Part shown: in pieces, positions 52,977 to 56,850 of the stretch
How positions within the stretch are numbered: the stretch's first letter is position 1
Layout: each line of letters begins with the position of its first letter
Assembly (NCBI RefSeq): GCF_041435055.1
Contig: NZ_CP108002.1
Location: 4,774,001-4,838,000, forward strand
Source of the DNA: Streptomyces sp. NBC_00341
Lineage (GTDB): Bacteria; Actinomycetota; Actinomycetes; Streptomycetales; Streptomycetaceae
Reading direction: 5' to 3'
Length of the DNA: 64,000 nucleotides
Notes under the pieces: generated by a model
The model's database searches: none
Told to the model about the DNA's origin: nothing
Seen by the model: only the letters and a program-made list of their open reading frames with translations
Made by a program: the position numbers and the translations under genes

Positions 52977-53426
52977 GTGAGCGGGGTGAGCGGTATGGCC
53001 GTGGTGGGGCAGCCCGGAGGGCGGCAGAGGCTGAGCGACCTGGTCGGTGGGTCCGGTGGGCCTGGTGGGTCTGACAGGTCCGGTGCGGTGGATGGGTCTG
53101 CTGGGGATCAGCTTCGGCATAGCGGAGGGGTGTGGGCTCGGGCTGCCGGGGGCGCGGAGGGGATGGTCGCGCACCTCGGGCCGGTGAAGTCGGAGCTCGC
53201 GGCGGCGCACGAGGGCCTGCTCGCCGGTACGGCCGGGCTGAGCGCCCTTGCGGAGCTGGGGAGCGTACGGGAGTCGTGGGAGCGGCGCTTCGAGTCCGCG
53301 CGCCGGGAGTGCGGGTCCCTGGCGGGGAACCTGCGGGGCGTCGCACGGGCCCAGGGCGAGACGAACGAGACCGTGAAGTCGTCCTTCACACCCGTGGCGA
53401 GGCCGGAGTGGGGAGTCGTACGTTGA
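52977..53426 (+). CDS. ESX/WXG-like helical small protein
   Basis: This protein of about 149 residues has a Gly-rich first 50. A helical region of roughly 90 residues follows (MVAHLGPVKSELAAAHEGLLAG, then ESWERRFESARRECGSLAGN). The pattern of two amphipathic helices with a central turn resembles LXG/WXG100 partners encoded before DUF1023 hydrolases. No WXG motif is obvious, although SVRESWERR sits near the expected turn. The GTG at 52977 follows AAGGA at 5 nt. The next gene starts inside its 3' end, in a +/- frame overlap of 19 bp. Confidence 0.75.
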   Translation: MSGVSGMAVVGQPGGRQRLSDLVGGSGGPGGSDRSGAVDGSAGDQLRHSGGVWARAAGGAEGMVAHLGPVKSELAAAHEGLLAGTAGLSALAELGSVRESWERRFESARRECGSLAGNLRGVARAQGETNETVKSSFTPVARPEWGVVR

Positions 53427-55225
53427 CGCCGCCGCCGAGTTCCACGCTGACCTGGGCACAGTTACGGGACCTGAGGTGCGCCGAGCTGGAGGGCGCGGCC
53501 GACGGATGGGGAAAGGCGAGCAACCGCGCCGACGCCGGACGGGACCGGATCGAGAAGCAACTGCTGAACGGCCTGCGCGAGACCCAGCGCGGCGCGGCGG
53601 CGGACGCGGCGGTGGGCAGGCTGCGGCAACTGGGCCAGAACCTGCAGTACGTGTACACGGAGTGCGGTCTGGTCCGTACGGCGCTGAACAGCCTCGCCCA
53701 CGAGATGAGGGCCCAGCAACGGGCGTTGCGGGAGGCACTGGACGACGCGGAGGCGCTGAGGTTCACCGTCCACGCGGACGGCTCGGTGACGTACCCGGAG
53801 GCCGGGGAGGGCCTGGTCGACGGTAAGCCGTTGCCGGGTGGCACGGCCTCGGTGACGGCGTCGCCGGGACTGCTGCCGCCGTCGGGGCTGGTGGCGCCGA
53901 ACCCGAACGCGGGCAAGGCCCAGGACATCGCGGACCGGGTGACGAAAGCCGTACGGACAGCCGCCGAGATCGACTGGCGGTTCGCCGGAATCCTGCGGGA
54001 CCTGAAGGCCGAGGAGGGCCTGAAGGTCCCGGACCGGACTTGGACGGACGCGGCGGGCGACGCCGCAGCGGTACGGGACGCGGCGCGCGGCTACCTGAAG
54101 TCGGGCATCCCGCTCGACGCGAGCCCGGCCGCGCGCAAGGCGTGGTGGGCGGGCCTGACGGACGAACAGCGCGAGGAGTACCTCGCGGTGTACCCGGACC
54201 AGATCGGCAACCTGGACGGCATCCCGGCCCTGGTCCGCGACACGGCCAACCGCGACAACCTCCAACTGCTGATCGGCAAGCTGGAGGGGCAGGACGATGA
54301 GGACGCGGAGACGAAGCTGGCGGGGCTGCGAGAGATCGACCGGCAACTGAAGGAGGGCCGGCAACCGCCGATGTACCTGCTCGGCATCGGGGACGAGGGG
54401 AACGGCCGCGCGATTGTCTCGTACGGGAACCCGGATACGGCGCGAAATGTTTCGGCATACGTTCCTGGGTTGAATACGTCGTTGGATGAGGACTTCGCGC
54501 AAAATGACCTCAAGCGGGCGCGGGATACGGCTATTGGGATGCAGCAGCATGATCCGTCGAGTGCTGGCATCGTTTGGCTTGGGTACGATGCGCCGCAATC
54601 GGTGGACGGATTTGACAGTCTCGACGTAATGGGAGATGAGAGGGCTGAGAGAGGTGGAGGTGCCTTCAATCAGTTCATGGATGGAGTTTCGGTTACGAAT
54701 GAGGATGACGATCCGCATATGACAGCAATCGGTCATTCGTATGGATCACGCACTGTGGGGGCGGCCACTCAGCAAGGAGGTGGGATTCCAGGGGTCGACG
54801 ACATCGTTCTGGTCGGAAGCCCCGGCGTTGGTGTGGATCGAGCGGAGGACCTTGGAGTTGGCAAGGAGCATGTTTTTGTAGGTGCGGCAGAGAACGATAT
54901 CGTGACCAAGCTTCCATCGAAGCAGCAGGCTGCTTTCGGTGCCGCTGCTTTCGCCTTTGCAGGACCGGCGGGTTCGTACCTGGTCGGCGATGTCGCAGAC
55001 CAGGGGGATGACGAACTCTGGTTTGGTAAAGACCCGGCGAGCGAGGCATTCGGGGCTAAGCGTTTTCCCGTGGAGGATGGCCCGAAGGTCGTTGGCGGCA
55101 ATGGTCTATCGATTGATGCGCATTCTCAATATTTCGATCCAGATCGAGATGCTTCATCGGCTAACAGCATCGCACTCGTCGCTGCTGGGCAATCGAATCG
55201 GCTTAAGGCGGAGGAGCATCGATGA
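53408..55225 (+). CDS. ESX-associated DUF1023 alpha/beta hydrolase
   Basis: This protein of about 605 residues has an N-terminal helical part (about 1-300) like ESX substrates, then a DUF1023 hydrolase. The nucleophile elbow is AIGHSYGSRTVG (S444). A likely catalytic Asp lies in GVDDIVLVGSPGVG or the following NDIV region, and the His is in SIDAHSQYFDP. Possible roles are a secreted lipase/esterase or an effector. From about 54410 onward, third codon positions become much richer in A/T (gat, att, ttg, tcg mixed), unlike the first 1 kb. The GTG at 53408 has GAGG at 5 nt; a TTG at 53423 overlaps the upstream stop. It overlaps the lipoprotein gene by 4 bp. Confidence 0.82.
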   Translation: MGSRTLTPPPSSTLTWAQLRDLRCAELEGAADGWGKASNRADAGRDRIEKQLLNGLRETQRGAAADAAVGRLRQLGQNLQYVYTECGLVRTALNSLAHEMRAQQRALREALDDAEALRFTVHADGSVTYPEAGEGLVDGKPLPGGTASVTASPGLLPPSGLVAPNPNAGKAQDIADRVTKAVRTAAEIDWRFAGILRDLKAEEGLKVPDRTWTDAAGDAAAVRDAARGYLKSGIPLDASPAARKAWWAGLTDEQREEYLAVYPDQIGNLDGIPALVRDTANRDNLQLLIGKLEGQDDEDAETKLAGLREIDRQLKEGRQPPMYLLGIGDEGNGRAIVSYGNPDTARNVSAYVPGLNTSLDEDFAQNDLKRARDTAIGMQQHDPSSAGIVWLGYDAPQSVDGFDSLDVMGDERAERGGGAFNQFMDGVSVTNEDDDPHMTAIGHSYGSRTVGAATQQGGGIPGVDDIVLVGSPGVGVDRAEDLGVGKEHVFVGAAENDIVTKLPSKQQAAFGAAAFAFAGPAGSYLVGDVADQGDDELWFGKDPASEAFGAKRFPVEDGPKVVGGNGLSIDAHSQYFDPDRDASSANSIALVAAGQSNRLKAEEHR

Positions 55226-55761
55226 GAATTCGTTTTCTGGTGTGTGGGATCACGGCGATTTTGGGCTTGGTACTTTCTGGCTGCGTAAGCAGCGACAAGA
55301 GGGCTGATATGGACATGCAAGACGCCGCAGGGCATGCCGACGAAATTATGGATGCGACGTTGGCGAGCATTGATCCAGTCGTTCAATGGACTCACGGCCC
55401 CACGACCACAGGATCCTGTGCTGTAACACGCCGCAGAGCCGTAATGACTATTGTTTCCGATGGGCGGCGAGGTAGCTTCTTAGGATTGGTCGAGAGGGCC
55501 TGGAGGAAGCGTGATTACAGGATCAAAGGTGTTAATAATGATCGGGACTCACCCGCTATCTACGCCCAATCGGGCGGCGGTTTCGGAGTGAGCCTGGTCT
55601 TTGGGGGCGGCCAAGCCTTCTTCGAGGTGGACAGTCCCTGCGTGGAAGAGTCCGAAGTGGCGGAGTCGACGACGCCGCCCAACGGTCCGTCCTACGAGGG
55701 TGTCTACCCTCTGCCCCGCCCCAACGTCCGCTCCGACTTCTGGTCCGCCGGAGCGCCCTGA
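55222..55761 (+). CDS. Lipoprotein encoded with the DUF1023 hydrolase; contains a TTA codon
   Basis: This 179-residue protein has a lipoprotein signal (ITAILGLVLSGC, lipidated C21). The mature domain has two further Cys (C66, C150 region) and ends in a conserved-looking Pro-rich tail (YPLPRPNVRSDFW). Codon 87 is TTA (55480-55482), the rare codon read by the bldA tRNA, so full translation may wait for development. The ATG overlaps the hydrolase stop (ATGA). The first two thirds share the lower GC of the hydrolase 3' part, then GC rises. It is a plausible immunity or accessory partner, but no family is recognised. Confidence 0.8.
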   Translation: MRIRFLVCGITAILGLVLSGCVSSDKRADMDMQDAAGHADEIMDATLASIDPVVQWTHGPTTTGSCAVTRRRAVMTIVSDGRRGSFLGLVERAWRKRDYRIKGVNNDRDSPAIYAQSGGGFGVSLVFGGGQAFFEVDSPCVEESEVAESTTPPNGPSYEGVYPLPRPNVRSDFWSAGAP

Positions 55762-55842: not shown

Positions 55843-56850
55843 GTGCGGAAATTCTGGTTGGTGGGTGGGATCGGCGTCGGGGCCGCCATGTGCTTCGTGG
55901 CGTTGCTCGTTGTCGGTACGTACTCCGCCGCAGCCGGCCTCGGGGGCGGCGGTGGCGGGGCTGTCGGGCTGGCCAAGGGGGCGGTGCCGGCCAAGTACCA
56001 GCCCCTCGTGGAGAAGTGGGGCAACCTCTGTCCCGCCATCAACCCCGCCCTCCTGGCCGCCCAGCTGTACCAGGAGAGCGGCTGGGACCCGGGCGCCAAG
56101 AGTCCGGCCGCCGCGCAGGGCATCGCGCAGTTCATCCCCGGGACCTGGGCCGGACACGGCATCGACGGGGACAACGACGGCGACCGGGACGTCTGGGATC
56201 CCGCCGACGCGATTCCGTCCGCCGCGTCGTACGACTGCGAACTGGCCGGGTACGTGAAGAAGGTTCCGGGGGACGCGACCGACAACATGCTGGCCGCCTA
56301 CAACGCGGGCGCGTACCGGGTGATCAAGGCGGGTGGGGTCCCGGGCATCTCGGAGACCGAGAACTACGTCAAGATCATCCGGTCCCTGGAGAAGAGCTTC
56401 GCCAAGCCCGTGGGCCGGGTGCAGCCCTCTCAGCAGGCCGCGGGTGCCATCTACTTCGCGCAGAAGAAGCTCGGGACGAAGTACCTGTGGGGCGGCAACG
56501 GCACGGCGGAGCAGGGCGGGCGGTTCGACTGCTCGGGGCTGACGCAGGCCGCGTACCGGACGGTGGACATCGAGCTGCCTCGGGTGGCGAACGACCAGTA
56601 CAACGCCGGACCGCACCCCTCGCGCGACGAGTTGCTCCCCGGTGACCTGGTGTTCTTCTCGGACGACCTGGCCAACTCGCGCGCCATCCACCACGTGGGC
56701 CTGTACGTTGGCGGCGGGTACATGATCAACGCGCCGTACACCGGTGCCGTGATCCGGTTCGACAAGATCGACTCGCCCGACTACTTCGGTGCGACACGCG
56801 TCACAAAGGACGGTGCCGCGGCCCTTCCGACCACGCGGCCGGCCGCCTGA
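55843..56850 (+). CDS. Lytic transglycosylase + NlpC/P60 peptidoglycan hydrolase (VirB1-like)
   Basis: This 335-residue protein has an N-terminal membrane anchor (about 5-32). An SLT-like domain has catalytic E78 in AAQLYQESGW and the motifs QGIAQFIPGTW and MLAAYNAGAYRV. A C-terminal NlpC/P60 cysteine peptidase has C230 in RFDCSGLTQAAY and H284 in IHHVGLYVGGGYM. Both glycan and peptide cleavage are thus in one enzyme, the layout of Gram-positive T4SS wall hydrolases. The GTG follows GAAGG. It probably opens the wall for the T4SS-like complex encoded at 37-44 kb. Confidence 0.92.
   Translation: MRKFWLVGGIGVGAAMCFVALLVVGTYSAAAGLGGGGGGAVGLAKGAVPAKYQPLVEKWGNLCPAINPALLAAQLYQESGWDPGAKSPAAAQGIAQFIPGTWAGHGIDGDNDGDRDVWDPADAIPSAASYDCELAGYVKKVPGDATDNMLAAYNAGAYRVIKAGGVPGISETENYVKIIRSLEKSFAKPVGRVQPSQQAAGAIYFAQKKLGTKYLWGGNGTAEQGGRFDCSGLTQAAYRTVDIELPRVANDQYNAGPHPSRDELLPGDLVFFSDDLANSRAIHHVGLYVGGGYMINAPYTGAVIRFDKIDSPDYFGATRVTKDGAAALPTTRPAA

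Follow-up and report, generated by a model that had tools for sequence, protein, structure and literature searches.

The window analysed here is a stretch of 64,000 nucleotides from Streptomyces sp. NBC_00341 (contig NZ_CP108002.1, forward-strand positions 4,774,001 to 4,838,000), and positions 52977-55761 of it hold a module of three genes for a small ESX-like protein, a DUF1023 hydrolase and a lipoprotein. The three genes overlap, as a sequence-only reading of this DNA had claimed: the gene coordinates give a TTGA overlap between the first and second genes and an ATGA overlap between the second and third. To judge from comparison with related modules, the hydrolase domain and the core of the lipoprotein have been swapped between strains as one DNA block. 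The features of the locus, numbered from the first letter of the window, are as follows.

52977..53426, + strand: ESX-like gene (small, helical partner; 149 amino acids, GTG start, in-frame ATG at 52995 as an alternative start)
53423..55225, + strand: DUF1023/Abhydrolase_8 (PF06259) gene (600 amino acids, TTG start)
53423..54412, + strand: N-terminal half of the DUF1023 gene (codons 1-330), conserved flank of the exchanged block with a history close to that of the NlpC gene
53462..53464, + strand: TTA codon 14 of the DUF1023 gene, bldA-type (TTA in 42 of 55 orthologs)
54434..55615, + strand: exchanged block with low GC content at third codon positions (GC3), comprising the hydrolase domain and the signal peptide and core of the lipoprotein; delimited by GC3 borders, identity borders and tree tests
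54737..54739, + strand: Ser439, predicted nucleophile (GHSYGS), invariant
54896..54898, + strand: Asp492, predicted catalytic residue, invariant
55121..55123, + strand: His567, predicted catalytic residue, invariant
55222..55761, + strand: lipoprotein gene, proposed immunity protein (179 amino acids)
55282..55284, + strand: Cys21, lipobox cysteine (LSGC)
55417..55419, + strand: Cys66, proposed disulfide partner, kept in 53 of 55 orthologs
55480..55482, + strand: TTA codon 87 of the lipoprotein gene, not conserved (4 of 42 orthologs)
55639..55641, + strand: Cys140, proposed disulfide partner, kept in 53 of 55 orthologs
55843..56850, + strand: NlpC/P60 and SLT gene (by Pfam), conserved 3' flank outside the cassette

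The DUF1023 protein matches PF06259 over residues 326-499 with an E value of 6.3e-34 (117.6 bits against a curated cut-off of 20.5). Ser439, Asp492 and His567, whose catalytic roles are predicted from the alpha/beta-hydrolase family, show no variation in the 55 orthologs or in a 71-row alignment; the most diverse ten-residue stretches of the hydrolase domain include 371-380, 401-430, 501-530, 551-560 and the C-terminal 591-600. We know of no test of the role of the DUF1023 hydrolase family.

Related modules were collected by two routes. A search of 150 genomes of the genus found 70 with a DUF1023 match at E values up to 1e-20, and scanning with the lipoprotein yielded 58 loci (L037-L094), every one titled Streptomyces. 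There were 84 full-length DUF1023 rows, and also 84 when a relative of the lipoprotein was required within 700 bases downstream; after removal of eight duplicates the collection comprised 93 modules, 76 of them full and 17 with a different N-terminus. Group A consists of 42 modules at least 67% identical to the window and group B of 32 modules below 60%, and two other modules lie outside the group tests. The remaining 17 form M2, a tandem paralog (L040-L042, L052-L064, L092 and others) in which a second DUF1023 gene stands ahead of NlpC, in the same locus in 15 of the 17 cases; its N-terminus is longer and unrelated, it has a lipoprotein of its own, its GC3 is high and its alleles are not exchanged. 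A check set of 17 further loci was reduced to 13 by excluding three duplicates and L172 (64% identical).

The block stands out when the window is compared with its nearest relative, L046. The amino-acid difference is 0.02 in the N-terminal half (N-half) of the DUF1023 protein, 0.23 in the hydrolase domain and 0.34 in the lipoprotein core, and returns to 0.07 in the lipoprotein tail and 0.02 in NlpC; at fourfold sites the values are 0.12, 0.52, 0.81 (27 sites only), 0.18 and 0.08, respectively. Block identity is below 0.85 in 15 of the 17 pairs with an N-half DNA identity above 0.93, the remaining two being L064/L062 (block identity 0.86) and L053/L061, which carry the same allele. Left borders in the 15 divergent pairs fall at DUF1023 codons 355-369, and in 14 pairs the right border falls somewhere from lipoprotein codon 130 to the NlpC start, in one within the hydrolase gene (codon 589). 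The check set repeats the pattern, with a divergent block (identity 0.58-0.78) in nine of ten close pairs (N-half identity above 0.92 and a new member) and the same allele in the tenth; the right border lies well ahead of the lipoprotein tail in two of the nine. Since close pairs share members, these counts are not independent. Core identity among alleles ranges from 52 to 99%, as for variants of one hydrolase family and not for unrelated toxin folds, and two strains of Streptomyces laculatispora (P0002 and P0053) have the same lipoprotein tail and different cores.

The clearest case of exchange is one divergent hydrolase-lipoprotein pair that occurs on three flank lineages. The hydrolase domains of L168, L171 and L068 form a common divergent class, with 73-83% mutual identity and at most 61% identity to others, and their lipoproteins are 75-80% identical to one another and at most 60% to others. 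Their nearest N-halves are those of L038, L010 and L018, respectively, and their N-halves differ by 0.18 between L168 and L171 and by 0.21 between L168 and L068.

Tree comparisons agree. Across 42 genomes, forcing the N-half alignment onto the two core trees costs 1791 and 2129 log-likelihood units. For the hydrolase alignment the cost is 1182 units with the tree of the N-half and 113 with that of the lipoprotein; for the lipoprotein alignment it is 598 with the N-half tree and 85 with the hydrolase tree. A five-segment run on 32 genomes, for which most values of the approximately unbiased (AU) test were not captured, gave losses per 100 bp of about 7 between the N-half and NlpC, 11-33 among core segments and 52-141 between flank and core. 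The loss never exceeds 13 in M2 and is 23-58 throughout in group B, with no split between flank and core. Distances in the hydrolase domain and lipoprotein remain correlated given the N-half (partial r = 0.73, 55 genomes), and none of 2000 permutations reached as high a value. The flanks, namely the N-half and NlpC, have one history, and the hydrolase domain and lipoprotein core have another. Flanks that are conserved around a core varying in step in both genes are what the sequence-only reading had expected, and pairs, trees and borders bear this out; the core proved to be neither equally conserved nor vertically inherited. The exchange of the block is the part of that reading that stands; timing by a TTA codon in the lipoprotein gene, the novelty of the arrangement and the low GC content as the mark of a single event do not, as described below.

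The lipoprotein itself has no match in Pfam, NCBIfam or PADLOC, and sequence searches of the PDB with it and with one distant lipoprotein gave no lead. Its linkage to DUF1023 is close. A DUF1023 match lies at most 400 bases upstream in 57 of the 58 loci found through the lipoprotein, and a lipoprotein follows in all 30 loci found through the hydrolase (L007-L036); the latter is the independent figure, the lipoprotein having been the query that led to L037-L094. Each of the 45 genomes with a lipoprotein match also belongs to the 70, out of 150, that have a hydrolase match. In other actinobacterial families, a distant lipoprotein adjoins DUF1023 in three of five genomes, and none was seen in the short stretch available for the other two. 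The lipobox pattern was recognized in 45 of 55 group-A lipoproteins; the ten failures comprise seven with a ...GC signal by eye, together with L020, L051 and L012 (for the last two, see below).

The source genome (9.06 Mb) has six DUF1023 genes, three of which combine a helical N-half with an ESX-like gene upstream and lipoproteins downstream. Besides the window's module, these include one at 3.22 Mb (L125:3269-6632, minus strand), where two lipoproteins of the window's family stand in tandem and the ESX-like gene is identified by position and a weak WXG100 match, and one at 1.90 Mb (L126:2140-5793), with the order ESX/DUF1023/two lipoproteins of a different, lower-GC and barely similar family, recognized by eye (profile-comparison probability 46%). 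Neither an ESX-like match nor one to the window's lipoprotein family accompanies the other three DUF1023 genes, other lipoproteins not having been sought there. Three lipoproteins stand behind one hydrolase in G116, an orphan lipoprotein is present in L080, and in G030 and G092 a lipoprotein match is not near any listed hydrolase match. Extra and orphan immunity-like genes are thereby present, in arrays that look like those of antidotes.

A relative of the ESX-like gene precedes the hydrolase gene in 73 of the 76 non-duplicate full-length modules. EccC gives three matches above the family cut-off in the source genome and none above it in 14 control genomes, by which the source genome has a type VII secretion system (T7SS).

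We consider it fairly probable, by analogy with TslA/TilA of Staphylococcus aureus, that the module encodes a polymorphic hydrolase toxin, probably delivered by the T7SS, together with its own immunity lipoprotein. The ESX-like protein and the helical N-half of the DUF1023 protein would form the delivery part; the C-terminal serine hydrolase would be the toxic part, probably acting on a lipid or other envelope ester outside the cell; and the lipoprotein, held on the outer face of the membrane, would inhibit the hydrolase that belongs to the same allele. The hydrolase domain and lipoprotein core would be swapped as a block through homologous recombination within the conserved flanks, and therefore toxin and antidote would stay matched. 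As in polymorphic toxin systems, what appears to be a conserved delivery part is joined to a variable C-terminal part, and the downstream gene covaries with the toxin part, the trees being close, not identical. If this is correct, the module would correspond in actinobacteria to the lipase toxins of staphylococci, with DUF1023 and a lipoprotein family without a Pfam, NCBIfam or PADLOC model as its components; this would explain why such lipoproteins adjoin DUF1023 genes, and the natural allele swaps could be used for tests of specificity.

The sequence-only reading had called a secreted hydrolase with a surface-held immunity lipoprotein a new arrangement, but it is already known in TslA-TilA, a T7SSb phospholipase A toxin and its DUF576 immunity lipoprotein, for which toxicity, 14-nM binding and protection are published (PMC10730906). 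The window system shares with it a Ser/Asp/His hydrolase, a helical domain, small helical partners, an adjacent immunity lipoprotein (here proposed) in variable copy number and a polymorphic toxin domain (PMC10730906). It differs in its host, Streptomyces as against Bacillota with T7SSb, in the joint exchange of hydrolase domain and lipoprotein core, and in domain order, the toxin domain being N-terminal in TslA and C-terminal (326-499) in the window protein. DUF576 was not matched among 80 lipoprotein homologs in a Pfam search at E values up to 0.1; with the domain order reversed and DUF576 absent, membership of the TslA family is excluded. Tox-ABhydrolase-3, a predicted polymorphic toxin with Imm66/Imm69, is likewise a GHSxG hydrolase and is listed for actinobacteria, with T7SS (WXG) among its routes (PMC3482391). 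PF06259 is absent from the portion of that text examined, and unlike it our system shows no Imm family in the Pfam scan of the 80 homologs. The T7SS immunity families EsaG and TipC are reshaped by recombination through conserved blocks, in their case among tandem immunity paralogs (PMC9484751), whereas the window's block extends across two genes and passes between strains and species. Among the same 80 homologs, LppA (PF16708, mycobacterial lipoproteins) is weakly matched by six at E values up to 0.1 (best 3.4e-4); the window's lipoprotein does not match it, nor do four of the distant lipoproteins from other actinobacterial families. Mycobacterial genes for LppA-type lipoproteins may also lie beside DUF1023 genes, an arrangement on which no paper was found in the open-licence literature. 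In the open-licence literature, we found no paper joining a polymorphic toxin with DUF1023, and DUF1023 together with Streptomyces led only to a classification paper.

Several points weigh against the toxin-antidote reading. Toxicity, binding and secretion are parts of it that we infer, as are the target, protection and bldA dependence, and adjacency alone could make two genes travel together. The AU test rejects all foreign trees, including those of hydrolase and lipoprotein on each other (p = 8e-5 and 2e-3), so that the pairing is not strict and the history is mostly but not fully common; the Shimodaira-Hasegawa test does not reject these two (0.10 and 0.07). In the five-segment run, an AU value of 0.167 was obtained for the first hydrolase segment against the tree of the first N-half segment, although the loss there is 152 log-likelihood units per 100 bp; we take this value as a failed estimate. 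The window's nearest hydrolase alleles (L157 and L044) and its nearest lipoprotein allele (L037) belong to different loci. The same-allele pair L037/L038 has a silent change of 0.34 in the core and 0.13 in the flank, so sites of low GC3 may evolve faster and account for some of the silent excess, and for this reason silent divergence was not used as the sole proof of exchange. On the delivery side, the window's ESX-like protein has no Pfam match; WXG100_2 is touched by two of 49 homologs (best E = 0.013), and the N-terminus of the DUF1023 protein reaches WXG100 at E = 0.036 (NCBIfam) and 0.71 (Pfam), all below cut-off, as is the match of the ESX-like gene of the 3.22 Mb module to WXG100 (E = 0.0028). 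The ESX-like label is accordingly weak, and these weak WXG100 matches suggest a helical N-half. Finally, the lipoprotein begins at the core in L051 (5992-6459) and L012 (3298-3756), with no signal peptide, lipobox, Cys66 or Cys140, and is ill-suited to be an extracellular antidote in that lineage.

Alternatively, the hydrolase could remodel the envelope and the lipoprotein could serve it as foldase, activator or surface anchor, the two being swapped together since they must fit and their diversity coming from phages or predators that recognize surface proteins. Adjacency and co-exchange suit any obligate partner, the locus lies beside an NlpC/SLT cell-wall gene, and the lipoproteins of L051 and L012, lacking signal peptide and cysteines, suit an intracellular partner. 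We nevertheless regard this alternative as unlikely: two or three lipoproteins per hydrolase and an orphan suit antidotes better, and the genome's three DUF1023 genes without an ESX-like match are also those without a match to this lipoprotein family.

GC3 in the window changes from 0.91 to 0.55 and back to 0.91. A three-segment fit, made on the window's codons, gains 85 log-likelihood units and puts the borders at DUF1023 codon 338 (about 54434) and lipoprotein codon 132 (about 55615); the drop at 54410 and recovery at 55560 noted from sequence alone are in substance correct. Mean GC3 goes from 0.95 to 0.92 in M2 and from 0.87 to 0.81 in group B, without a step of comparable size or a comparable excess of core divergence. 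Low GC3 accompanies exchange at the level of groups; individual group-B rows vary between rising slightly and dropping by 0.17, which blurs the contrast with group A.

Local hypermutation or relaxed constraint, directed towards AT under vertical inheritance, would make high divergence and low GC3 coincide as they do, and would also fit the excess of silent core change in L037/L038. This is very unlikely, and in its pure form disfavoured, because the trees differ in topology and not just in branch lengths; furthermore, silent divergence is about equal in the hydrolase core and N-half of the same-allele pairs L044/L156 and L053/L061, one allele class sits on three flank lineages, and the tandem paralog M2 is without such a block. 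A one-off import of a lower-GC toxin cassette, recently acquired from outside, would account for the sharp GC3 borders in the window and is scarcely credible, since the drop exceeds 0.15 in 52 of 55 group-A orthologs (the exceptions being L051, L012 and, marginally, L025), which rules out a recent low-GC donor, since a low segment was fitted with consistent median borders (DUF1023 codon 331 and lipoprotein codon 132) in 40 of 42 orthologs, and since TTA is rarer than CTA in the low-GC hydrolase part (9 against 33), by which the block looks like a long-term resident. For the same reasons, its prevalence and its avoidance of TTA, the lower-GC core does not mark one exchange event as had been supposed.

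It is possible, although we hold it with some doubt, that the low GC content of the block results from its polymorphism. Alleles too divergent to recombine within the block would escape a recombination-linked process that keeps GC3 high in the rest of the Streptomyces genome, whether GC-biased gene conversion or a selection for GC that recombination makes effective, and the freely recombining flanks would stay at a GC3 of about 0.91. In support, GC3 is low in the module that exchanges, where its borders lie close to those of exchange, and high both in the non-exchanging M2 and in the lineage with a signal-less lipoprotein (L051 and L012); drops of up to 0.17 without a clear exchange block in some group-B rows weaken the idea. 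The cause of high GC content in bacteria is debated (PMC6867656). If polymorphism is the cause here, the composition of the block would amount to a natural experiment within single genes, a rare test of what maintains high bacterial GC.

The TTA codon at 55480-55482 in the lipoprotein gene is real, and it had been read as a sign of bldA-timed production. It was rejected as a conserved signal, TTA occurring at codon 87 in only 4 of 42 orthologs and anywhere in the lipoprotein gene in nine. The conserved TTA is instead codon 14 of the hydrolase gene, absent from the sequence-only reading: codon 14 is TTA in 32 of the 42 orthologs of the original group A, and in the 55 orthologs it is TTA in 42, TTG in 10 and CTG in 3. 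The N-halves of the 42 genes contain 34 TTA among 1529 leucine codons, 32 of them at codon 14. The window's N-half has 28 codons ending in A or T, whose clade shares are 0.76 for codon 14, 0.88 for codon 248 (GAA) and 0.00-0.49 for the other 26. Most TTA codons of Streptomyces are reported to be poorly conserved, and 11 to be kept by half or more of the species that possess the gene; an 'alpha/beta hydrolase' with a conserved TTA, possibly a DUF1023 gene, is among the genes named there (PMC10327506). The conserved codon suggests that the bldA tRNA would time attack through the toxin gene. No paper combining bldA, a TTA codon and type VII secretion was found in the open-licence literature.

The GAA at codon 248 (54164-54166) is kept in 37 of 42 orthologs and, alone among the remaining A-ending codons of the N-half, reaches the conservation of the TTA. 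Orthologs without TTA at codon 14 have a mean core GC3 of 0.69, compared with 0.61 in those that have it, relatedness not being factored in. The L051/L012 lineage has neither the low-GC block nor the TTA codon. In M2, 13 of 17 modules have an early TTA, no later than codon 104 of the longest frame, the start codons of these frames not being settled.

Three loci show less regular arrangements. Hydrolase pieces lie on the opposite strand at a contig end in L039:1-413, perhaps as an assembly artefact. L113 has three tandem relatives of the lipoprotein, with no DUF1023 match within the 3.4 kb examined. In L115, DUF1023 is apparently split over two frames and is followed by a lipoprotein; beyond this lie another, truncated DUF1023 piece and another lipoprotein.

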